A stretch of DNA of 64,000 nucleotides, taken from positions 1 through 64,000 of the forward strand of contig JAHYIV010000010.1 in assembly GCA_019429465.1 (NCBI GenBank), read 5' to 3'. Position numbers and translations under genes: made by a program. This DNA comes from Desulfoarculaceae bacterium (GTDB lineage Bacteria; Desulfobacterota; Desulfobulbia; Desulfobulbales; Desulfocapsaceae). This document shows positions 34,978 to 52,637 of the stretch, piece by piece; within the stretch, counting starts at the first letter, position 1, and every line of letters starts with the position of its first letter. The notes beneath the pieces were generated by a model. That model was given only the letters and a program-made list of their open reading frames with translations. It ran no database searches and was not told where the DNA came from.

Positions 34978-36204
34978 TCAGTTTGCCTTTTTACGAAGAT
35001 AGGTCGGAGTCTCAAGGTAATCTTCATTCCAGGATCGGGCCTCCTTCTGATTGCGCGCGGCCTCTTTACGGCCTCCGGAGACACCGAGATCATCAAAACC
35101 TTCAAAGTTCGATTGCAGCAGCGGGGTCACAAAGGCGGGACGCGGATTCGTCGGAGCCGGCGCTGCCGGGGCCTCCTGGGTGCTTGTCATTTTTACTGAC
35201 TTGCGCGATTCCTCAAGCAAACCGATCGGTTCATTTTTTTTGACCACATTGCCTATTCCCGTTGCAATAACAGTGACACGCAGCTCATCGCCAAGCGTTT
35301 CATCATAGAGGACACCAAGGACAATTTTTGCGTCCTCATCCACCTTGCTTTGAATAAGGGCTGAAACCTCCATATACTCAGCCAGGGTCAAGCTCTCTTC
35401 CGTTCCCGAGATATTGATAATGAGACCACGAGCCCCATCGATCCCCGTATCTTCCAGGAGTTGATTATCAATGGCCCGCTTGGCTGCCTCTGTCGCCCTG
35501 GTTTCACCAACGGCCGCACCAGAGCCCATGATGGCTGGCCCCACTTCCTTCATCACCGCCCGCAGATCAGCAAAATCAGCATTGATCATCCCGGGAACAT
35601 TGATCAGGTCCGTAAGTCCCTTGACCGCCTGCAGCAGGACGAGATCGGCCATGACGAACATGTCGGCGAGCCTGTTGTTTTTCTGCATCAACGAGAGAAG
35701 CCGGTCATTGGGAACGGTAATGATGGCATCCACATATTTCCGCAGCTCATCCCAACCGGCTTCCGCCGTGCGCATTCGCGCCTTGCCTTCAAAATGAAAC
35801 GGCTTGGTCACCACTGCCACAGTGAGGGCACCCAGCTCTTTAGCCACCTTGGCGACAACAGGGGCGGCGCCTGTTCCGGTTCCGCCGCCAAGCCCTGCCG
35901 CGACAAAGACCATGTCGCTCCCCTTGAGGGCCTTCTTGAGCTCCTCCAAGGACTCATGAGCGGCCTGGGCTCCGATATCAGGATCCATGCCAGCGCCCAG
36001 GCCCTTGGTGATACTGGGACCAATCTGCAGGCAGAAATCCGCACGAGACTTTTGCAGATCCTGCTTATCCGTATTGGCCACAATAAACTCAACGCCCTGC
36101 AGCTTATTGTGCACCATGGTGTTTACGGCATTGCCGCCGCCACCACCGACACCAATAACCTTTACTATCGCCACACCTTCTGTCTCCGCCATTCTAAACG
36201 GCAT
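34978..36204 (-). CDS. ftsZ: Cell-division protein FtsZ
   Basis: A 408-residue tubulin-like GTPase forming the cytokinetic ring. Signatures seen: [17 protein letters not shown] at the N-terminus, the tubulin motif [13 protein letters not shown], the T7 loop [11 protein letters not shown], and a conserved C-terminal peptide [13 protein letters not shown] that binds FtsA. The C-terminal linker is short. The ATG at 36204 follows AGGGGTGAGATT. Last gene of the dcw cluster. Length is typical. Confidence 0.98.
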
Positions 36205-36319: not shown

Positions 36320-37582
36320 TTACATGATTTTTTTCATCAACATCTTCAACCGCCCAACCATGGAAGAATCATTGTTTAACTTCCGAGCCCGAGTCTCACG
36401 GCCATACTGAACCAGACCGACAGCCGTCGTGCAACGCGGAGTATGGACATCCTCTACGCGTCCTCTAATATTGACCGGATAGCCGATTCGTACCGGCAGA
36501 TCAAAGATCTGTTCAGCCAGATCCACCAGGTTAGCCAGCAAGGCCGTTCCTCCGGTAATCACCACCCCGCCATGGATTTTATTTTTCTTGCCGGAATGGA
36601 TCAGTTCCTGATTGACCATCTCCAGGATCTCGACAATACGGGCCTGCAGGATATCGACCAGAAGTTTCTGGTTCAGTTTACGCGGCTCCCGATCACCGAC
36701 GGTCGGCACATCAACCATATAATTCGGTTTAATCATTGCCGCAATGGCGCTGCCATAATCTTCTTTTAACCGTTCTGCCTCCTGCAGGGGTGTCCGCAAC
36801 CCCACCGACAGATCATTAGTCAGATTGTGGCCGCCAAGACCTATCTGACTGGTATGCCTGATGGTTCCGTCACAGAAGACGGCAAGATCAGTGGTCCCGC
36901 CGCCAATATCAAGCAAGGCCACCCCCAGTTCCATCTCATCGGCACTGAGAACGGCGTGGGCCGAGGCAATAGATTCCAGAACCATATCCAGCACCTCCAG
37001 ACCCGCTTTCCGGCAACAGGTATAGAGATTATGCACGGCGCCCATATCAGCGGTGACGATATGGACATTGGTGACAAGACGAACACCAGTCATCCCCAGC
37101 GGGTTCTGGATTCCGGTATGATCATCGACCATATACTCCTGAGGCAGGACATGGATAATCTGCTGATTTTCAGAGATCTTCACCGTCTTGGCGGCGACAA
37201 TCACATCTTCGACATCAGATTCCGAGATCTCCTTGCCATTAATGGCCAGGATTCCAGGACTGTTAAACCCTTTGATATGATTACCGGTAATCCCGACATA
37301 GACACTATGCAGTTCGCATCCGGCGACGTCTTCCGCCTGTTCCACGGCCTGCCGTATAGATTTGACAGTGGACTCGATATTGACCACAACCCCTTTTTTC
37401 ATACCCACTGACGGGGCGGCGCCGACACCGATAATATCCACCCCGTCATCGAAGACCTCTCCGACGACACAGCATATTTTTGTGGTTCCTATATCAAGGC
37501 CAACAATAACTTCACCCGACGCCCGCTTCTCGCTGCGCTGCTCCAGTTCGACCTCTGCCCCTGTGTCATTTATTTCATCCAT
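36320..37582 (-). CDS. ftsA: Cell-division protein FtsA
   Basis: A 420-residue actin-like membrane tether of FtsZ. The N-terminus has GEVIVGLDIGTTKICCVVGEV; SHSVYVGITGNHIKGFNSPG marks the SHS2 (1C) domain; the ATP-binding motif is LLDIGGGTTDLAVF and the later glycine motif GGVVITGGTALLANL. The C-terminal membrane-targeting helix is RLKMLMKKIM. Six bases separate it from ftsQ upstream. Confidence 0.97.
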   Translation of the reverse strand: MDEINDTGAEVELEQRSEKRASGEVIVGLDIGTTKICCVVGEVFDDGVDIIGVGAAPSVGMKKGVVVNIESTVKSIRQAVEQAEDVAGCELHSVYVGITGNHIKGFNSPGILAINGKEISESDVEDVIVAAKTVKISENQQIIHVLPQEYMVDDHTGIQNPLGMTGVRLVTNVHIVTADMGAVHNLYTCCRKAGLEVLDMVLESIASAHAVLSADEMELGVALLDIGGGTTDLAVFCDGTIRHTSQIGLGGHNLTNDLSVGLRTPLQEAERLKEDYGSAIAAMIKPNYMVDVPTVGDREPRKLNQKLLVDILQARIVEILEMVNQELIHSGKKNKIHGGVVITGGTALLANLVDLAEQIFDLPVRIGYPVNIRGRVEDVHTPRCTTAVGLVQYGRETRARKLNNDSSMVGRLKMLMKKIM

Positions 37583-37588
37583 GATTTC

Positions 37589-38683
37589 TCAACCCGATCC
37601 ACTGTGTGCCACCAGCACCTTATTTTCCAGATAATCCATACGAATATACGCGACATCCGCGATAGTCATTCCCTGAGCTGTATCCTTATATAAAATTTCC
37701 AGTACCCTTTTCAAACGACTATATTTTGTTCTGACCTCTCCCTTACCAAAATAAACAGGGAAGGGATGATCAGCCAGATAGAGAGTCATTCCAGCATCCC
37801 GGTCAACATGAATCTCAGAAAGATTCTGGATCGGCAGGTTAGGATTATTCTGCCTGATAAGCTTAAGAAAGGCCAGAGGTTCATGGAGCATCTCCTGCAT
37901 AGGCACTGCATTGCTCCCGTCATCCCTGCCTCGCACGGGCACAGGCCGTCCCGGGCCGTCGCCGCCTTTTACCTCAAGGCCGGTTATGACCGGAAAATCC
38001 ATATCCTGCCCCGGTTCAACCGGGGCAAACACCACCCCGTCCTTATCCAGATAAAAAAACTTCTGGCTGCCGGAAACCTCTTGAAGGATCAAGGCCTCAG
38101 CCACATGCTCCTTAATCGAGATCACAAGCACATCGGGCCAATCACGTTTGACCTCAGCCGCTGATATCCTGGGGTGAGCCCTGACAATCGCCTCAATATG
38201 TGCAGGATTCAAGGTCACCAGGCTGCTCTGATACCTTATCCCGGCAAGTTCACGAATCAGGGAGGGCGTGGTTATCCGACAACCGGTAATGGTGATTTCC
38301 CGGATTTTGAAAAGATTCAGCCCAGAGACAACATTCACCAACGGGCCCTGTACCGCAAAGACTAAAGAGGCGGCGAAAGCCAGAAGCCCTGCCGGAACCA
38401 GCAGGGCCCTGGTCCTGTTTTTTGGCGGCAATGGAGTTCGCGTCCACTCCTGACGCCGACCGAGGGCACCCTGGTGTCGCTCACGAAAGAGTGAGCGCCT
38501 GGCAGAGCTCTGAAACCAGGAGCCTATCCTGCTGAGCAGCCCGACCCGTTTCTCTCTCTGAGCGGCAGACCTGGAAGTAAACACAGGTTGACTCCCACGA
38601 CCAGCAACGCTGGCACGCTCACTTCTCTTTTTTTTCTTTTTCAGAAGAAAAAAAGAGCTAATTTTCTTTAGAGCGTTCAACAC
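37589..38683 (-). CDS. ftsQ: Cell-division protein FtsQ
   Basis: A 364-residue bitopic protein. A long basic cytoplasmic N-terminus of about 90 residues (KKKKKRSERA) precedes one membrane helix at about 94-114 (LLVPAGLLAFAASLVFAVQG). Then comes a POTRA domain (FKIREITITGCRITTPSLIR) and the FtsQ beta domain (KRDWPDVLVISIKEHVAEAL). Start is GTG. A stretch near residues 225-250 (GGDGPGRPVPVRGRDDGSN) comes from the short mobile repeat at 37915-37960 and lengthens a loop before the C-terminal half. Confidence 0.9.
   Translation of the reverse strand: MLNALKKISSFFLLKKKKKRSERASVAGRGSQPVFTSRSAAQREKRVGLLSRIGSWFQSSARRSLFRERHQGALGRRQEWTRTPLPPKNRTRALLVPAGLLAFAASLVFAVQGPLVNVVSGLNLFKIREITITGCRITTPSLIRELAGIRYQSSLVTLNPAHIEAIVRAHPRISAAEVKRDWPDVLVISIKEHVAEALILQEVSGSQKFFYLDKDGVVFAPVEPGQDMDFPVITGLEVKGGDGPGRPVPVRGRDDGSNAVPMQEMLHEPLAFLKLIRQNNPNLPIQNLSEIHVDRDAGMTLYLADHPFPVYFGKGEVRTKYSRLKRVLEILYKDTAQGMTIADVAYIRMDYLENKVLVAHSGSG
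37915..37960 (+). repeat. 54-bp family short repeat inside ftsQ
   Basis: TCCCGTCATCCCTGCCTCGC followed by ACAGGCCGTCCCGGGCCGTC. It is similar to the CCA-enzyme copies and is read in the opposite strand as GDGPGRPVPVRGRDDGS. Confidence 0.65.
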
Positions 38684-41322: not shown

Positions 41323-42435
41323 TTATTTATTGCTTCCGTTCATTATTTCCAGACAGCTATCGACGATCCTGTCCGCGGCATCAGGACGACCCAGAGTCCG
41401 CATGGCCACAGCCATCTCCGCCATCCTTCCTCGATCCCCGGCAAGACCGGCCAGGGTTTCAGCCAGTTTCCCAGCCGTCAGTTCCCGCTCCACCAGGACC
41501 ACAGCCCCGCCACTATCGGCATAATAACAACCGTTCCTGTATTGATGATCATCAGCGGCAAAGGGATAAGGGATCAGCACAGCAGGTTTCCCAAGGACTG
41601 CCAGCTCGGCGAGGGTTGTGGCACCTGCCCTTGAAACCAGCAAATCGCATTTCCCATAGACCTCTGCCATGTCGGTAAAAAAAGCGGCCACCGTCGCATG
41701 AACCCCGGCCTGCTCATAGGCCACCTTCACCATCTCCTCATCGGCAGCACCGGTCTGATGGATAACCTCTATTCCAGGTGGCAGCAAGCTCCCATAACGG
41801 GTCAAGGCCTCTATCACCATTTCATTGACCCGGTGCGCACCCAGGCTGCCTCCGAGTACCAGAATCGTCAGCTTTTCATCTCTTTTCTCAGGTGATACCT
41901 TGGCCAGTTCCAGGATCTGGCGACGCACAGGATTACCGGTCAGCACCGTTTTTCCTACCGGAAAAAAGACCTCACTGCCCGGCAGAGAAAGACAAATTCT
42001 GGTGGCCAATTGCCCTAATTTTCTATTGGCCAGCCCCGGCACGGAATTCTGTTCATGAATCAGCGTCGGCCGCCCCAGGATCCTGGCCGCAGCCACCACC
42101 GGTCCGGTCACATAACCGCCAACCCCCACCACCAGATGCGGCCGGAAGCGGATGATATGCCAGAGGGCCTCGACAAAGGAAACAGGAAGGAGAAGAAGGG
42201 CCTGAGCCAGAGCCAACACCCCCTTGCCTTTTAACCCCTGACAATGGATCCCCCTGGTACTGAAACCATAGTGAGCAAGGCTGACCTTATCCATCTTCCG
42301 CCTGGTCCCCACAAAGAGGACCTGGGTCCCGGGAAAACGCCGACAAAAGGCCTCGGCCGTGGCGATGGCCGGAAAGAGATGCCCACCTGTCCCGCCGCCG
42401 GTAAGCAACAGCCGCAGGGGTTGCCTCTTGCCCAT
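41323..42435 (-). CDS. murG: UDP-GlcNAc:MurNAc-pentapeptide-undecaprenol GlcNAc transferase
   Basis: A 370-residue GT-B glycosyltransferase, peripheral on the inner membrane, that makes lipid II from lipid I. The N-terminal motif RLLLTGGGTGGHLFPAIATA is a classic MurG G-loop, followed by GVGGYVTGPVV and LIHEQNSVPGLANR. The donor site has LGGSLGAHRVNEMV, and SRAGATTLAELAVLGKPAVLIPYPFA is the C-terminal signature. The start overlaps the murD stop by TGATG, leaving no room for ftsW. Confidence 0.97.
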   Translation of the reverse strand: MGKRQPLRLLLTGGGTGGHLFPAIATAEAFCRRFPGTQVLFVGTRRKMDKVSLAHYGFSTRGIHCQGLKGKGVLALAQALLLLPVSFVEALWHIIRFRPHLVVGVGGYVTGPVVAAARILGRPTLIHEQNSVPGLANRKLGQLATRICLSLPGSEVFFPVGKTVLTGNPVRRQILELAKVSPEKRDEKLTILVLGGSLGAHRVNEMVIEALTRYGSLLPPGIEVIHQTGAADEEMVKVAYEQAGVHATVAAFFTDMAEVYGKCDLLVSRAGATTLAELAVLGKPAVLIPYPFAADDHQYRNGCYYADSGGAVVLVERELTAGKLAETLAGLAGDRGRMAEMAVAMRTLGRPDAADRIVDSCLEIMNGSNK

Positions 42436-43952
42436 CAGACACTACCACCCTTGCCACCGGCGGCAACGGCAACGGCCAGGGACGCTCTGATCACCTTCTG
42501 CGCGGCAGCGGCAAAGACATTGCCCCGATGACCATAGTTGTCGAACATATCAAAACTGGAGCAGGCTGGCGAGAGCAGGACCGTATCCCCTGCCCGGGCC
42601 AGCTCAGATGCCAGCATGACCGCCTCCTCCATTGACTCTGCCCGGTGCATCTCGGTCATCCCGGCCAGGGCCTGGGCAATCAGCTCCGTGGCCTCACCAA
42701 TCAGGATAAGACAGCGCACCTTTCCAGCCACACTCTCTTTAAGCAGGGTATAATCATCTCCCTTGTCCCGCCCCCCGGCAATAAGAATCACATTGCCGCT
42801 AAAACTGGCAAGGGCGCTGAGAACAGCCCCGGTATTGGTAGCCTTGGAATCATCATAATAGGAGACCCCGTCACCCTCTCCAACCCACGCCATTCGATGC
42901 GGTGCCACCTGAAAAGCGGCCAGACCCTGCACTATCGCCTCCCGGGCACACCCAAGGCTGCGGGCGGCAAGGATGGCCGAGGCGCCGTTCAAGAGACCGG
43001 TGGCATTGTCCAGCATAGACCCCGCCAGGTCATACACCTCTTCTTTGCCCTGCCACGCAAGGACAACACCATATCCATCAATCCGCGCCTGACAGTCCGC
43101 TCCATGTCCAAAAAGACGCCACCGCTGACATCGCTCTGCCACCATCCCAGGCTCCAGCGTCACCGGCCCATCCATGGCCCGCACCCCGAGTTCTGCCGAC
43201 AAGGCTCGACAGAGCTGGTCGTCACCACCGAGGATCGCCGTATCATTCTGCCCCTGGCCGGAAAAGATCTTCATCTTGGCTGCGACATAACCCGCCATGC
43301 TGCCATGGCGATCCAGATGATCCGGGGTCACATTGAGCAGGATCGCCACATCTGCCTTAAAGGCCCCTGCCGCTTCCAGCTGAAAACTTGAAAGTTCAAG
43401 CACCAGCACATCCACATCTTCAGGATTACTCAGATAATCAAAGAGCGAAGTGCCGATATTGCCGCCGACAAAGACCTTTTTCCCGGCCTGCTGCAGCAAC
43501 TTGCCGATCAGGGCGGTCACCGTGGTCTTGCCATTGGTGCCCGTGATCGCCACTACTGGTTTAGACAGCAGCGGCGCCGCCATGGCCAATTCACCCAGCA
43601 CCGGGATGCCGAGGGCGCGAAGCTCCTGCAGGATCTCCAGATCCTGGCTGATTCCGGGGCTGACCAGGACCTGATCGGCTCGCCTGAGAAATGCCAGGGT
43701 ATGGCCCCCGCATTCATACTCTACTCCCTGCTCTGCCAGAAAGTCCAGATCTGCGACGGCCAGGGACGGCCTGAGGCCATGGGAGCCAGGGCTGGCGGAA
43801 GCAGCCGCCGGCAGGTGCGGACTGTCCCTGGTATCAGAAACCAGCACTCTCATTCCCTGCGACAGCAGATAACGCACAGCCGCCCGACCGGAGACCCCCA
43901 GTCCCATCACTGCCACGCAGCCATCAGCTGTTATTTTATTATGAGCTCTCAT
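42435..43952 (-). CDS. murD: UDP-N-acetylmuramoyl-L-alanine--D-glutamate ligase
   Basis: A 505-residue Mur ligase, longer than the usual about 440-460. It starts VMGLGVSGRAAVRYLL, with P-loop VVAITGTNGKTTVTALIGKL, then LNVTPDHLDRHGSM, YYDDSKATNTGAV and LIAGGRDKG; LLSPACSSFDMFDNYGHRG is typical. Two stretches come from the short mobile repeat: SPGSHGLRPSLAVAD in the N-terminal domain and AMDGPVTLEPGM in the middle. Both lie in loops. Adds D-glutamate to UDP-MurNAc-L-Ala. Confidence 0.95.
   Translation of the reverse strand: MRAHNKITADGCVAVMGLGVSGRAAVRYLLSQGMRVLVSDTRDSPHLPAAASASPGSHGLRPSLAVADLDFLAEQGVEYECGGHTLAFLRRADQVLVSPGISQDLEILQELRALGIPVLGELAMAAPLLSKPVVAITGTNGKTTVTALIGKLLQQAGKKVFVGGNIGTSLFDYLSNPEDVDVLVLELSSFQLEAAGAFKADVAILLNVTPDHLDRHGSMAGYVAAKMKIFSGQGQNDTAILGGDDQLCRALSAELGVRAMDGPVTLEPGMVAERCQRWRLFGHGADCQARIDGYGVVLAWQGKEEVYDLAGSMLDNATGLLNGASAILAARSLGCAREAIVQGLAAFQVAPHRMAWVGEGDGVSYYDDSKATNTGAVLSALASFSGNVILIAGGRDKGDDYTLLKESVAGKVRCLILIGEATELIAQALAGMTEMHRAESMEEAVMLASELARAGDTVLLSPACSSFDMFDNYGHRGNVFAAAAQKVIRASLAVAVAAGGKGGSV
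43133..43182 (+). repeat. 54-bp family short repeat inside murD (central site)
   Basis: CTGCCACCATCCCAGGCTCC...GGCCCATCCATGGCCCGC. Translated on the minus strand it gives AMDGPVTLEPGMVAER, like AMDGPVSRTPRTAQER of the histidine kinase. Confidence 0.7.
43755..43803 (-). repeat. 54-bp family short repeat inside murD (N-terminal site)
   Basis: Reads ASASPGSHGLRPSLAVAD on the coding strand. The nucleotide pattern CCTGGCTCCCATGG...AGGCCGTCCCTGGCCGTC is nearly that of the CCA-enzyme copies. Confidence 0.8.
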
Positions 43953-45031
43953 TAACGCAGTTTCAAGGTGGCAATGGCAACAAGGCCGAGGATAACAGAG
44001 ACGATCCAGAACCTGACCACCACCTTTGGCTCATGCCAGCCTTTTTTCTCAAAATGATGGTGAAAAGGGGCCATGAGGAAGATCCTCCGGCCATTGGTCA
44101 TTTTAAAATAGCCCACCTGCAGGATGACTGATAATGCCTCCATGACAAAAATTCCGCCAACGATGGCCAGCAGTATTTCCTGTTTAATAATAATGGCTAC
44201 CGCCCCCAGGGCCCCGCCGAGAGCCAGGGAACCCACATCACCCATGAAGACCTGGGCCGGATAGGCATTAAACCACAAAAATCCAAGGCAGGCCCCGACC
44301 ATGGCCCCGCAGAAGATGGCCAGCTCGCCGGCCCCTGGCACAAAGGTAATCTGCAGATAATCCGCCAGCACGACATGTCCGGCCAGATAGGAAAAAATAA
44401 GGTAGACAGCCCCTGAGATAACCGTCGGCCCTGTGGCCAGACCATCAAGGCCGTCAGTGAGGTTGACGGCATTGGAGGATCCGACAATCACCAGTACGGC
44501 AAAGACAATATAGAACCAGCCAAGATCCGGCCTGATATTTTTAAAAAAAGGGACACTCAAATGCCCATCAAATGCTGGATGCAGCAGCACAAACAGGCCG
44601 ACCACGGAGGCGCCTGCAACCTGGAGGATCAGTTTGCCTCTGGCGCTCAGGCCCTTTGTGGTTTTCTTACGAACCTTTTTCAGGTCATCAATGCCGCCAA
44701 TCATGCCAAAAAAAAGGGTGACAAAGAGCAGCAGCCAGACGAGCGGATTATCCAGCCGGGCCCACAGCAATGTGGAACAGGTAATGGCAGACAGGATCAA
44801 CACCCCGCCCATGGTGGGCACCCCCTGCTTTGCCAGATGAGTCTCCGGCCCGTCATCCCGCACAACCTGTCCAATCTGGAAACGCTGCAAGGCCCTGATA
44901 AACATCGGACCCAGAATAACCACAACGAGAAAGGCCGTCACCGCCCCGCCGATGGAACGTACGGTGATATAGCGAAAGATATTAAAACTGCTGAAGCTCG
45001 TATGCAGTGGATAGAGTAGGTGGTAGAACAT
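43952..45031 (-). CDS. mraY: Phospho-N-acetylmuramoyl-pentapeptide transferase
   Basis: A 359-residue integral membrane enzyme with about ten helices that makes lipid I. Seen: [36 protein letters not shown] (catalytic aspartates), [33 protein letters not shown], and [20 protein letters not shown]. All expected blocks are present, with the normal length. It overlaps murD by one base. Confidence 0.97.
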
Positions 45032-45309: not shown

Positions 45310-48300
45310 TTACTCAGCCAAACTTTCTAACTGTTCGACCACAACCTCAAGACGCATCCCCCTTGAACCTTTGACCAGCAGCCAGTCGCCAGCCTGCAAC
45401 TGACTACCGGCCAGGAGGTCTTCGATCCAATCCACAACACCCTTCTTTTCCAAGAAGATTTTGATCCGCCGGCTATCCATACCGGCCATCCTCGCCCCGG
45501 CGGCCGTCTCAGCTGCAAAACTCCCGACCAGGGCCAGATAGTCAATTCCCTGACCCGCCGCAAACCTTCCCACTTCCCGGTGGGCCTCGGCGCTGCCTGG
45601 GCCCATCTCCAGCATATCTCCCAGAATGGCCACCCGCCTGCCCATTTGCTGCTGGCGAAGGGTCTGCAAGGCTGCCTGCATTGAGGCCGGATTGGCGTTA
45701 TAAGTATCGTTTAAAATAGACACCCCACCCTTCCCCTTGACAATCTGCATCCGCTTGTCAGCAGACCTGAAGGCGCCAAGGCCGGCACCGATCTGACGTA
45801 ATCCAAGACCTGCGGCATGAGCAATAGCAGCTGCGGCCACTGCATCGAAGATATTATGAACGCCCGGGACGTGCAGGGTAACACCAATTGTCTCCCCTGC
45901 GAGATGAAGGACAAAACTCTGAGTGGAAGTCCCCTCACTCGAAATGTCAGAGGCCCAGACTCGTGGCTGTTGCGACAGACTCAGGCCCTCTTCACTTGCG
46001 GCATAAAAAACCTTTTTCTGCTGATACTTCTCAGCGCAGGCCCGCACGCGGGCATCATCCAGATTAACAACCAGAGTAGTGGTCTCGCCGCACCCGGCAA
46101 ACAGCTCCTCCTTGGCCCTCGCAACCCCTTCTATGGAATGCAGCCCCTCCAGATGCACGGCATGGACATTGATAATGCAGGCGATATCAGGTTCAGCAAT
46201 ATCAGTTAATCTGGCAATCTCACCTGGTCGGTTCATACCCATCTCCAGGATAACAGCCTTGTGGCCTGGATCAATGGGGAGCAGAGAGAGGGGCAGGCCT
46301 ATAAGATTATTGAAATTCCCTCTGGTCTTCAGCACCCGCTCTGGAGGCGCCTGGACATCCATCTCCCGGGCCCGCCAATGATGTTCAAAGATTGCCGCCG
46401 TCATCTCCTTGACCGTGGTCTTGCCACAGCTGCCGGTAATGGCCACCACCAGCGGTCGATTGACCGCCTTCATCACCTGCCGCCGATATGCAGCCAGGTC
46501 GCCCAGGGCCTGCAGCGTATTCTCCACCAGCAGACAGGAAATAACGGGAAGGCTCTCTCGGGGTGTTTCCTGACGAACCACAAGACAGCCTGCTCCAGCG
46601 GCCGCTACCTGGTGCAGAAAGTCATGACCGTCAAACCTCTCTCCTTCAAGGGCCACAAAGATGTCGCCCTCTGCCACTTGCCGGCTGTCGGTCACCACTT
46701 TTCCAAGGTCTGCTCGGCCCTGAAGGTCCCCGACCAGCTCACCTCCAACCGCCAGTCCGACACTGTCAAGTCTCCAACTCGTCAATGCTTTTTGGACCTC
46801 AAGAGTATCATCAAAAAAACGTTTGCCATCCTGCCCGTGCTGATACAGTTCATGACCTTTGCCGGCGATGAGCACGACATCCTCCGCTGTTGCCGCCCCA
46901 ATGGCCAAGGCAATGGCGGCGGCCCGGCTATGTAGAACAAGAAAACCCTTATTGTCACCTGCCGAGGCCGTGAGCCAGGAAGATGACCGCTTTGGCATAC
47001 CGCTCAACCGGGCTCCGGAGACGATCTGGGCCACTATCTCCCGGGGCGATTCACTGCGGGGATTATCATCGGTGATGAGCACCACATCGCAGCACTGACC
47101 GGCAATCTCACCCATAAGGGCCCGTTTTCCTTTGTCCCGGTCACCACCACAGCCAAAGACACAGATCAATCTCCGATGCGGAAGACGGGAGAGGGTCGCC
47201 AGCACCTTTTCCAGGGCATCCGGGGTATGGGCATAATCGACAAAAACCGCAGGCCGGAAGTGCGCTTCCTGTCCTGCCGGCCTCACCCGCTGCAGACGAC
47301 CAGGGGCACCGGGCGCATGAGCAATCCCGGAGGATAACACCTCCGCCTCAACTCCCAGGGCCAGTCCAATCCCTATTACGGTCTGCAGATTTTCGACATT
47401 AAAGTCACCCACCAGGGGGGAGGTGAACTGAACTTCTTTCCCCGGCAGATGCAGGGTCATGGTGGTGGAATCGAGAGACGAATCGATGTTCAAAGGATAG
47501 ATGTCGCTCTGGTCGGCCCGGCCACACTGCCACACCTTAACGCCCTGCGATGCACACAGCTCAACCAGCAGCCGGGCCCTGTTCTCTTCTTCGGGATCAT
47601 GATCTTCCCTGCGGCAGATAACACCCCTGCCGCCCATCTTCAGATGCTCACGAAAGAGGAGGGCCTTGGCCGCGAAATAGTCATCCATATCCTGATGATA
47701 ATCCAGATGGTCACGGGAGAGGTTAGTAAAGGCAGCAACATCAAATTGCAGATCACCAAGGCGGCGCTGGCTCAGGGCATGGGAGGAGACCTCCATGATC
47801 ACATGGGTCACGCCCGCATCTGCCATCTGCCTGAGGAGTCTCTGCAGCAGGAGCGGCTCCGGTGTCGTGAAAGGGGCCGGGAACTCTTCATCCTGCCCCT
47901 TGGCATCACGGTAACGATAATTAACCGTACCGATCACCCCGACCGCCAAGCCCTGCAGCCTCAAGACACTGTCAAGGAGATAGCTGACCGTGGTCTTACC
48001 GTTGGTGCCGGTAACGCCAATCAGGGTCAACCCCTGGGCTGGACTCCCATACAGATTAGCCGCAATCTGCGCATAGGCCAGATGGCTGTCTTCAACCACA
48101 ATCACACTCTGGGCACAATGGACAAACTGTTCCGGTCTCACCCTGCCTCTCTCCACCACAATTGCCGTGCAGGCGCAGGCCATGGATGGCCCAGTGTCGC
48201 TCGCTCCAGGGATGGATGAAGAGCAACCGCAGGCCATGGATGGCCCAGTGTCGCTCGCTCCAGGGATGGATGAAGAGCGACCGCAGGCCATCACCTGCTC

Positions 48301-48519: not shown

Positions 48520-48874
48520 AATAGAGAATGGTGGAGAGATAAAAATTGAAAGTTAAAGATCGAGCAAGAGTCTTAAAAACTGTACCGCTGCCATCTCGAT
48601 CAAGGAGCAACGGTCGTGGCAGGAATATCAAGAGAATCAATAGAGTGAGAGAGGGCCTTACCTCGCCTGCAATACCCAGAAAGGTCTGCTGGGGCCAGAG
48701 GAACAGGAGAAGAGGACACTTTTAATCAGTCCCAAAGTGATTCACTAAGCCGCTGTAAAAAAATAACATGGCTATCTTAGTGCCCGGAGCGGCATAAGCG
48801 GCATAAGCGGCATAAGGAGCCGTAACGAAATAGATATAAATGGCCATGTTATTTCGTAACGGCTCCTAAGCCTT
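48520..48874. other. Intergenic gap in the dcw cluster containing a repeat
   Basis: 355 bp without a gene between ftsI and murEF. It holds the palindromic element at 48743-48869; the remainder has no recognised feature. Confidence 0.6.
48743..48869. repeat. Palindromic ATAACATGGCCA element, empty copy with triplicated 9-mer
   Basis: Same ends as 15964-16127 but without the 55-bp insert. GGAGCC joins GTAACG directly. It also has GCGGCATAA three times in tandem (about 48800-48827). It lies just after the ftsI stop. Confidence 0.85.
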
Positions 48875-50836
48875 TCACCTTGTCCTTTCAATGGCATTCT
48901 TCGGTTTTTCTTCAGTCACACTACGGTGTTTAGCTGGTGGCTCTTTATCATCTTTTTCGTCTTTTTTCAAGATGAGCAAGCACTCTTTCACCCCGGCAAG
49001 CGGAGTTCCTGCGACTGGATTCTGTGCCACGACGCGTCCAGATCCCTGAATCCGCACCTTCACTTTTTTATCCTGCAACAAACGCAAAGCCCGCCTCAGA
49101 CTCAAGCCGGAGAGGTCAGGCATATGATGATTATGCTGTTTAAGGATGGTCTTTTGTTCAACGAGGGATTTTATCTCTTGCTCCTGCTGATAATTACCCT
49201 CCTCTTTTTCAGACAGACGCATCATGTCAGAGACATTTTTATGCACCTGATGCAGGGCCACCATTGACGGCAGTATCTTGGCAGCCGGCCCTGCAAGGTC
49301 CAGCCTGTTTTTGGCAGAGGCCACAGATGGCTCGAGGTATGGCTGACGCACCATCACCATCAGAATCAGTTCCGGCTTATCTTCCGGCAGCAGGACAAAC
49401 ATCATTCTGGTCCGGAGATATTCAGCCGGAGAAAAGGAGAGATCCTGGATATCAACAAAAACTGAATTCAATACCTCTTTATGTCCCTGGGCCTTAAACA
49501 ATTTCCAGGTTTCTACCAAGACAGGATGCGAAAGCTGTTGACGCTGTTCGCCACGCCCACCGCTTATGGTTTCCAAGGCATCAGAAGGTCCCTGCCCGTC
49601 TCCTGCGACCGAAGCCCTGAAAAAATACTCACGTTCGCCGTTGCGCTCCAGCACACGATCAAGCACATGCGGCAAGACCTGACGACCACCATTTAACAGA
49701 GAGTTCATCCCCAGAAGTATCTGCATTGGCGTTGCCATTACCGGCATGCCTGCAGCCTCACTTCCTAATACTGCAGGCACCTTTCCTGGCCCGTCGACAT
49801 TGCCACTGCCATCCTGCACTGAAAAATCCAGATCCGGCACCGCACTCAAGCCCAACTGCTCCCATAGATGAGATTCAAGCCCTCTGTCCACAGGCCCAGC
49901 CGCAATACTCCAGGGATAGATCTGCCCATATCTGGCCCAATCCGCCTGCAGCAAGGCCACATCCTGAAAAAAACCCCGTATTTTCTCTGGAATAACAACA
50001 GGTTGAAGCAGGAGATTGGCAAGAGATTCTTTCTTGTACTGATAGAAGAGATTCGGGTCGAAGGAGGGAAAATTGGCACTGGCAACGACAGCGCCCGTTT
50101 CTGTTTCCATGAGCAGTGTTACAATCTCCACACCCTCATGCAACAGCGCCAGCGCTTCCACATATTTTTCAAGAAATTCCTGTATCTTCAGGTCGATGGT
50201 CAAGACAAGATGTTGGCCACTAATACCAGTCTTGGCGCAACCATCCAGATTGACATGGGGAAAATCATCCTGACTGATGCTGGCCTGATTCAGAAGACGA
50301 TTATAATAATACTCGGTCCCGGCCAGTCCCATATTATGATCGGCAAAGCCAATCATATGAGCGGCAGTACCCTTATAGGGATAATAGCGAACCTGCTCCT
50401 GGTGCAGAAAGACACCCGGCAATTGCAGATCTGTTACCGCCTTTTCTTCTTCCAGACTGATATCTTTTGCCAACCAGACGCGCTGAGAATCCTTGTCCAA
50501 ACGTCCCGTCAGCTCTTGCTCATTCATGCCCAGAACTGTGGCCAGCTGCCCGGCGCTCTCATGAATATCTTCCAGCTCTCTTGGTCTTACATAAACAGAG
50601 ACCCGGTCAAGAGAAACAGCTACCTCTTTGAACTTTCTGTCATAAATCGTCCCGCGTATATTCTTTTTTTTCTCTGTCGCCTTCCCCAGCTCAAGAGACA
50701 CCATGCGCGCCAGCCCTACTATTTCCTTTTTATACACGACGGCAAGTCCCGCGACAACAATAGTCAGGGCCATACACAGAAGCACCAACCTGCCTCGCCC
50801 GCTTTTCCTTACCATCCGACGCGACTGTTTGACCAT
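48875..50836 (-). CDS. FtsI-position penicillin-binding-protein homologue with PASTA domain; active site not seen
   Basis: A 653-residue bitopic protein at the ftsI place. Membrane helix at about 16-36. The PBP dimerisation domain follows (RGTIYDRKFKEVAVSLDRVS, then NMGLAGTEYYYNRLLNQ), then the start of the transpeptidase domain (VLTIDLKIQEFLEKY, ETETGAVVASANFPSFDPN). Where the catalytic SxxK should come (about 280-290) it reads VVIPEKIRGFF, with no serine. The SxN and KTG motifs are also not seen, and the part between them is shortened. The C-terminal half still aligns (ATPMQILLGMNSLLNGG). A PASTA domain is at about 571-624. I infer a catalytically dead scaffold of divisome assembly; a badly diverged active enzyme is unlikely. 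ftsW is absent nearby. Confidence 0.85.
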   Translation of the reverse strand: MVKQSRRMVRKSGRGRLVLLCMALTIVVAGLAVVYKKEIVGLARMVSLELGKATEKKKNIRGTIYDRKFKEVAVSLDRVSVYVRPRELEDIHESAGQLATVLGMNEQELTGRLDKDSQRVWLAKDISLEEEKAVTDLQLPGVFLHQEQVRYYPYKGTAAHMIGFADHNMGLAGTEYYYNRLLNQASISQDDFPHVNLDGCAKTGISGQHLVLTIDLKIQEFLEKYVEALALLHEGVEIVTLLMETETGAVVASANFPSFDPNLFYQYKKESLANLLLQPVVIPEKIRGFFQDVALLQADWARYGQIYPWSIAAGPVDRGLESHLWEQLGLSAVPDLDFSVQDGSGNVDGPGKVPAVLGSEAAGMPVMATPMQILLGMNSLLNGGRQVLPHVLDRVLERNGEREYFFRASVAGDGQGPSDALETISGGRGEQRQQLSHPVLVETWKLFKAQGHKEVLNSVFVDIQDLSFSPAEYLRTRMMFVLLPEDKPELILMVMVRQPYLEPSVASAKNRLDLAGPAAKILPSMVALHQVHKNVSDMMRLSEKEEGNYQQEQEIKSLVEQKTILKQHNHHMPDLSGLSLRRALRLLQDKKVKVRIQGSGRVVAQNPVAGTPLAGVKECLLILKKDEKDDKEPPAKHRSVTEEKPKNAIERTR

Positions 50837-51737: not shown

Positions 51738-52637
51738 TCACTTTCTGACCGCTACTCTCAATCGTGCACTGCGCGACCGGTAATTCGCCGCAATCTCAGC
51801 AGCTGTCGGCATAATGGGTTTGGGGGTCAGGATCTCCATATCAGCCTGTTCCCTGAACTTTCGCTTCACCATCCGGTCTTCCAGGGAGTGAAAGGAGATC
51901 ACACAAAATCTGGCCCCGGATCGCAGCAGCGGCGGCGCATCCTCAAGGATTCGGGCCAGATTTTCCAGCTCGCTATTGACGGCGATACGCAGTGCCTGAA
52001 AAACCTTGGTCGCCACATGAATCTTCTCAGGATGAAAACGCCGCGGTATGGCACGCGCCACAACGGCAGCCAGCTGCCCGGATGTCAGGATCTTCTCGGC
52101 AAATCGGGAGAGTACGATCTCACGGGCAATCGGCCGGGCCTGTTTTTCATCCCCATAATAAAAAAAAATGTCTGCCAGCTCGGACTCGCTGCAGGTGGCA
52201 AGGAGCGAAGCCGCCGTCATTTCCCGTCTGGTATCCATGCGCATGTCAAGAGGTTCATCCCGCTTAAAGCTGAAACCACGGCCGCCCAGATCCAGCTGCA
52301 GGGACGAAAGTCCGATATCAATGAGGATGCCATCCACCTGCTCTACTCCGAGCTCTGCCAGCCCGGCACCAATCTCGGCAAAATTACGTCTGACGATGGT
52401 CAAACGATTTCCAAAGGGCTGCAACCTGACCCGGCTTCGAGCAATGGCCTCCTCGTCCCATTCAAAGGCAATGACCCGGCCATCCGGCGAGGAGCGGCGT
52501 AAAATCTCCTCGGTGTGCCCGCCAAGACCCAGGGTGCCATCCACATACAAACCACCCGGGCGGGGAGCGAGATAATGCAGAACCTCTTCGGGCAGCACCG
52601 AGCAATGGACTGTTTCTTCCTGCTGCCGGGGCTTCAT
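51738..52637 (-). CDS. rsmH: 16S rRNA (cytosine-1402-N4)-methyltransferase
   Basis: A 299-residue SAM-dependent methyltransferase. Seen: HCSVLPEEVLHYLAPRPGG, the SAM motif VDGTLGLGGHTEEILRR, GILIDIGLSSLQLD, RGFSFKRDEPLDMRMD (family signature), and CVISFHSLEDRMVKRKFRE. It methylates C1402 of 16S rRNA. It overlaps mraZ (TGATG). Confidence 0.97.
   Translation of the reverse strand: MKPRQQEETVHCSVLPEEVLHYLAPRPGGLYVDGTLGLGGHTEEILRRSSPDGRVIAFEWDEEAIARSRVRLQPFGNRLTIVRRNFAEIGAGLAELGVEQVDGILIDIGLSSLQLDLGGRGFSFKRDEPLDMRMDTRREMTAASLLATCSESELADIFFYYGDEKQARPIAREIVLSRFAEKILTSGQLAAVVARAIPRRFHPEKIHVATKVFQALRIAVNSELENLARILEDAPPLLRSGARFCVISFHSLEDRMVKRKFREQADMEILTPKPIMPTAAEIAANYRSRSARLRVAVRK

Follow-up and report, generated by a model that had tools for sequence, protein, structure and literature searches.

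FtsI homologues without transpeptidase motifs accompany the absence of FtsW in the class Desulfobulbia and further lineages of its phylum

Introduction

Septal wall synthesis in walled bacteria has been described as depending universally on the FtsW-FtsI pair, C. difficile being the recent exception. This species has no functional FtsW/FtsI pair for vegetative division, and the septum is made by the class A PBP1 (PMC10693644, PMC12539705). A structural role for FtsI is indicated by B. subtilis, in which the S309A variant of PBP2B still supports division (PMC5656894). The genes ftsW, ftsN and zipA have been reported missing from two cable bacteria and from two species of Desulfobulbus, and the accessible text of that report takes FtsI as present and as the source of septal synthesis (PMC7873302).

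Here we describe a division locus of the same class, Desulfobulbia, contained in a stretch of 64,000 nucleotides (the window, meaning the whole stretch analysed). The protein in its ftsI slot shares with canonical FtsI/PBP3 the locus, the transmembrane (TM) helix, the pedestal, the transpeptidase fold and the PASTA domain (E 1e-76 in profile comparison, Z about 30 in structural comparison), but differs in having no SxxK, SxN or KTG motif and no FtsW partner gene. As in C. difficile, there is no functional FtsW-FtsI division pair and there is one RodA-PBP2 growth pair, here as read from genomes; a class A PBP is the septal synthase there and would be the leading candidate here. The dcw pair of C. 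difficile (SpoVD/SpoVE) is, however, intact and serves sporulation, whereas in our case ftsW is deleted and FtsI is apparently kept dead, in Gram-negative cells and across a whole class. The S309A variant of PBP2B likewise illustrates that a catalytically dead division PBP can do a structural job, but it was made in the laboratory, in a background that has FtsW and in which PBP3 supplies transpeptidation, while the dead state described here would occur in nature, throughout a clade and together with the loss of FtsW. The report on cable bacteria concerns the same class and the same ftsW absence, but in its accessible text neither the lost FtsI active site nor the wider extent is mentioned. FtsW absence was already known in four Desulfobulbaceae. 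In the open-access literature we found no report of a naturally dead FtsI or FtsI pseudoenzyme and nothing relevant on FtsW-less Thermodesulfobacteria.

Results

The cluster in the window runs in the order mraZ, rsmH, ftsL, ftsI*, murE-murF (fused), mraY, murD, murG, murC, murB, ftsQ, ftsA, ftsZ, where ftsI* stands for the gene in the ftsI slot (Table 1). Its position between ftsL and murE, as proposed in an earlier note made from the window, is borne out by the dcw context and by the same placement in relatives. A small ORF is syntenic with the ftsL-slot gene in relatives, and the intact ftsZ indicates that division is still FtsZ-based. FtsW is absent from the dcw cluster and from the genome, in which the single SEDS protein is RodA, adjoining a PBP2 with intact SxxK, SCD and KTGT motifs.

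Table 1. Features of the dcw cluster and of the ftsI-slot product, in window coordinates
Feature	Coordinates	Strand	Basis
ftsI-slot gene, predicted catalytically dead FtsI, 653 aa	48875..50836	-	ORF, Pfam, profile alignment
Predicted N-terminal transmembrane helix, residues 15-34	50735..50794	-	AlphaFold2 secondary structure and hydrophobicity
PBP dimerisation/pedestal domain, residues 60-235	50132..50659	-	PF03717, 49 bits over 60-164; dN/dS 0.14
Transpeptidase-like domain without active site, residues 236-500	49337..50131	-	PF00905 over 240-281 only; model Z ~30
Site of lost SxxK, K285-I-R-G288	49973..49984	-	hhalign A3 vs A4, column counts
Site of lost SxN, G319-L-E321	49874..49882	-	hhalign A3 vs A4, column counts
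Site of lost KTGT, Q464-D-L-S467	49436..49447	-	hhalign A3 vs A4, column counts
PASTA domain, residues 569-628	48953..49132	-	PF03793, 36.8 bits; dN/dS 0.134
ftsL-slot gene, 122 aa, one TM segment	51133..51501	-	Position and topology; no Pfam match
rsmH (mraW)	51738..52637	-	PF01795, 338 bits
murE-murF fusion, 1069 aa	45310..48519	-	
mraY	43952..45031	-	
murD	42435..43952	-	End coordinate 42435 is the murG start; ftsW slot empty
murG	41323..42435	-	
ftsQ	37589..38683	-	Homologues similarly placed in relatives
ftsA	36320..37582	-	Sequence and position
ftsZ, intact	34978..36204	-	Sequence and position

Several local features of the cluster were recorded in passing. Between ftsI* and murE-murF lies a gap of 355 bases, which carries a 9-bp repeat, AGCGGCATA, in 3.2 copies (window 48788-48816). 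Within murE there are 2.2 in-frame copies of a 54-bp unit (window 48174-48291) encoding the 18-aa repeat SSIPGASDTGPSMACG...; the unit is part of a dispersed repeat that has 42 matches across the genome, and its copy number differs within the genus (three in L199). Some lineages of the class have murE and murF fused, as here, and others have them as separate genes. At four loci from two FtsW-less families (L079, L082, L083, L089), the gap between murD and murG, i.e. the ftsW slot, holds a polytopic membrane ORF of about 267-270 aa, which we do not regard as an FtsW remnant, since hhalign detected no similarity to FtsW.

The earlier note described ftsI* as a full-length, maintained frame retaining the PBP dimerisation domain, the fold and the PASTA domain, and all of this stands: the 653-aa ORF is under purifying selection, PF03717 (PBP_dimer) scores 49 bits against a cut-off of 24.4 bits, PF03793 scores 37 bits, and the structural model gives Z of 30-33. 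The transpeptidase model PF00905, in turn, matches with 23 bits over the first 40 of its 299 positions only (residues 240-281), and in a search of the whole genome it detected PBP2 and three class A PBPs, with the ftsI-slot ORF left undetected. An AlphaFold2 model built from the alignment of relatives (A3, see below) has pLDDT 76.8 and pTM 0.67; its top solved match is SpoVD (7rcz, Z 33.3), S. aureus PBP1 is also among the best, and PBP3/FtsI structures, including FtsI of the FtsWIQBL complex 8bh1, are matched with Z about 30. As modelled, the protein keeps the penicilloyl-transferase fold; its active site is gone by the alignments described below. Among 14 ftsI* sequences compared within the genus, median dN/dS was 0.14 in the pedestal, 0.17-0.25 in the transpeptidase-like part, 0.14 in the segment that follows it, 0.13 in PASTA and 0.27 in the N-terminal segment; judging from these rates, which stay within 0.13-0.25 except in the N-terminal segment, purifying selection acts on the gene, which is functional rather than decaying. 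In one single-contig genome (G030, locus L038), two ORFs of 240 and 438 aa together make up the dead ftsI; a frameshift may be the cause, or decay may have gone one step further.

To locate the catalytic positions, the ftsI-slot protein and 57 named relatives (alignment A3, 58 rows) were compared with 21 catalytic controls, namely 20 FtsIs of the same phylum and that of E. coli (alignment A4). The named relatives belong to the Desulfobulbaceae/Desulfocapsaceae, and comprise Desulfocapsa, Desulfofustis, Desulfoprunum benzoelyticum DSM 28570, Desulfobulbus sp. Tol-SR, Desulfopila and Desulforhopalus; from these names we take the class to be Desulfobulbia. The two profiles were joined by hhalign over residues 14-626 (probability 100, E 1e-76), placing E. 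coli S307 at K285 and K310 at G288, S359 at G319 and N361 at E321, and K494-T-G-T at Q464-D-L-S; this assignment of catalytic residues is one of sequence and profile alignment, as distinct from residue-level superposition. It agrees with the earlier note, which had picked out VVIPEKIRGFF (residues 280-290) as the SxxK site, with K285 now seen in place of the serine, had reported SxN and KTG as missing (G319-L-E321 and Q464-D-L at the aligned sites), and had described contracted spacing (34 residues from SxxK to SxN vs 52 in E. coli). The eight columns S/K/S/N/K/T/G/T are invariant in the 21 controls; in A3 the first four hold K/E/G..., R/G/K..., G/S... and Q/E..., and the last four E/D/Q..., T/S/I..., L/V... 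and S/V..., the SxN position reading mostly GxQ or GxE in orthologues. A regular expression for the ordered motif set matched 21/21 controls and 0/58 rows of A3, and looser matches in L036, L080 and L091 were dismissed as coincidental, lying in the N-terminal half. A conserved serine and lysine in the pocket, the finding that would speak for an active enzyme, were sought in the sequence and profile alignments and neither was found. The conserved element of this region is a ‘PWS’ motif (W309 invariant, S310 in more than 90% of A3), whose W309 aligns with the Trp of the canonical ‘YGWL’, a residue with a structural role that precedes the SxN helix. By these alignments, the ftsI-slot protein is an FtsI homologue that has almost certainly lost catalysis. 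An assembly gap or decay in a single genome was rejected, because the state is common to the class, including single-contig genomes, and dN/dS is low.

We then consider how far this condition extends. In a survey of 145 Desulfobulbia genomes from 55 genera, single-contig genomes included, 142 gave a SEDS match and three gave none, and none of the 145 had two intact SEDS genes, the 58 relatives likewise having at most one; where present, this protein is RodA, beside a PBP2 with intact motifs. Of the apparent double matches, that in G047 comes from a single gene read in two pieces, and that in G146 includes a 129-base fragment at a contig edge as its second member. A relocated ftsW is rejected by these counts. 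Two class genomes, G059 (99% complete) and G100 (90%), have no SEDS protein at all, RodA included. PBP_dimer proteins number exactly two (PBP2 and the ftsI-slot protein) in 52 of the 58 relatives, the six with fewer being incomplete genomes or ones in which the locus falls at a contig end or was not recovered. None has more than two, and a second class B PBP elsewhere in the genome, for which the earlier note had proposed a search, is rejected by these numbers.

Elsewhere in the phylum, most families have two SEDS proteins. In a table of 58 dcw loci, ftsW and a catalytic ftsI occur together in 20/20 phylum controls, with ftsW also present in E. coli; at the 37 other loci, ftsW was found in 0/37 and a catalytic ftsI in 0/37. 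The genomes G173 and G169 have one SEDS protein and one class B PBP, yet have kept ftsW and a catalytic ftsI, and the remaining one-SEDS lineages have kept RodA-PBP2 and are missing FtsW. Outside the class, a slot gene between ftsL and murE was found at every locus read, and the motifs are absent from the nine members aligned. The products in these FtsW-less lineages shrink in steps, measuring 643 aa in G168, 538-569 aa in G241, G264, G286 and G326, 453-457 aa in G285 and G325, 412-440 aa in G180 and G306, 334-340 aa in G179, G214 and G263, 299-356 aa in G237, G260, G322 and G340, and 248-267 aa in G175 and G211. The shortest match the FtsI profile weakly and mainly through PASTA (E 1e-8 to 1e-11), their FtsI homology being suggested by these weak scores and by position, and for the products of G179, G214 and G263, with E from 2e-4 to 0.15, it is position that suggests it. 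Overall, FtsW loss and loss of the FtsI motifs are common to the whole class Desulfobulbia and to further lineages of the phylum.

On a five-gene tree (rsmH, mraY, murG, murC, murD), Desulfobulbia form one clade (100) and 30 FtsW-less rows form one clade (99). Unconstrained parsimony requires three changes on this tree; a constrained single clade of 31 has the higher likelihood and is not rejected (p-AU 0.525), nor is a constrained single clade of all 37 (p-AU 0.247). These gene-tree results are compatible with one to three losses of FtsW.

Class A PBPs combine glycosyltransferase and transpeptidase activities in one protein, and at least one is present in 61/61 genomes tested. Exactly one was found in eleven FtsW-less genomes (G168, G204, G175, G180, G306, G215, G326, G285, G325, G241, G286), all of which also hold RodA-PBP2. 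L,D-transpeptidases were not found in the FtsW-less genomes G175, G211, G180 and G168, and are therefore rejected as a universal substitute; in these four genomes, a class A PBP, PBP2 or both are left as the septal cross-linker. A class A PBP of about 1,100 aa, with a very long insert between SxxK/SEN and KTGT, is present in 21/21 Desulfobulbia genomes checked; in the nine of these proteins inspected from the class, the glycosyltransferase and transpeptidase motifs are intact and SxxK and KTG lie about 440-480 residues apart. The enzyme scores 359 bits against the 509-bit cut-off of the curated PBP1A family. In the genome of the window it is encoded at L201:127-3624 on the minus strand and is adjoined by an ORF for a LysM/SLT lytic transglycosylase. 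The same genome also encodes PBP1A-family and PBP1B proteins, both above their own cut-offs. Among the 21 genomes, G053 and G039 showed no PBP1B-like enzyme and G009 and G010 no PBP1A-like one, which leaves the enzyme of about 1,100 aa as the sole class A PBP common to all. Its distribution makes it, as a lead, the best single candidate for the septal synthase in Desulfobulbia.

Discussion

The earlier note had reasoned that a dead FtsI would mean either that another PBP supplies the activity or that septation works differently. The data support both alternatives and give no second septal class B PBP, and the co-loss of FtsW, which was not part of that note, strengthens and widens the case. 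The reading that we favour, and consider reasonably probable, is that FtsI survives as a non-catalytic divisome scaffold while a class A PBP makes septal peptidoglycan. The dead FtsI would be a structural subunit of the divisome, anchored via its TM helix; its pedestal domain may bind FtsL/FtsQ/FtsB and its PASTA domain the septal wall or lipid II, and it may position or activate another synthase. That synthase would be a class A PBP, with RodA-PBP2 staying the elongation pair. We know of no divisome link for the class A PBPs of these organisms. It should also be kept in mind that FtsQLB is dispensable in C. difficile vegetative division, so that retention of FtsQ and FtsL is no proof of a scaffold role. 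A more specific version, which we put forward tentatively, has an obligate FtsI pseudoenzyme scaffold recruiting or activating a dedicated class A PBP (that of about 1,100 aa in Desulfobulbia) in a class-wide Gram-negative divisome, the stepwise-eroded relatives representing a natural deletion series for the structural function of FtsI.

The main rival would have RodA-PBP2 perform both elongation and septation: the pair would be passed on to the Z-ring when the cell divides, and the dead FtsI would act as its adaptor or activator. Although this pair comprises the one SEDS protein and the one catalytic class B PBP left, both intact and single-copy, PBP2 has a dimerisation domain of its own and RodA an elongasome partnership, no sign of dual use was found in the sequences, and in C. 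difficile it is a class A PBP that makes septa, the only RodA-PBP2 pair, which is essential, serving elongation (PMC10693644); we consider such dual use unlikely. It is more doubtful still that the ftsI-slot protein has left division altogether to serve as a PASTA wall sensor or a dcw-linked regulator, with other PBPs building the septum. In some lineages the product is down to 248-356 aa and consists mainly of a TM segment and a PASTA-like end, which would fit such a role, as would the rank of PASTA among the most constrained domains, but the pedestal is equally constrained, G241, G180 and G306 have lost PASTA and kept the pedestal/transpeptidase-like part, and the place of the gene between ftsL and murE is constant. 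Hardly credible at all is a transpeptidase working through an unrecognised nucleophile: the fold is retained and ‘PWS’ is conserved, but S, K, S, N, K, T and G are all swapped for non-conserved residues, W309 occupies the site of a structural Trp rather than of a nucleophile, and the cognate FtsW is missing.

If the ftsI-slot protein is indeed dead, its automatic annotation as a transpeptidase is functionally wrong in these lineages, and the structural and catalytic roles of FtsI would have been separated in nature. The question of the minimal septal synthase becomes testable in genomes that have a single class A PBP beside a single RodA-PBP2 pair. FtsW is gone and FtsI is apparently present only in dead form throughout a class whose members include cable bacteria and common sulfate reducers, as well as in several further lineages, and such cells have to make their division wall without an enzyme pair that was long deemed universal.
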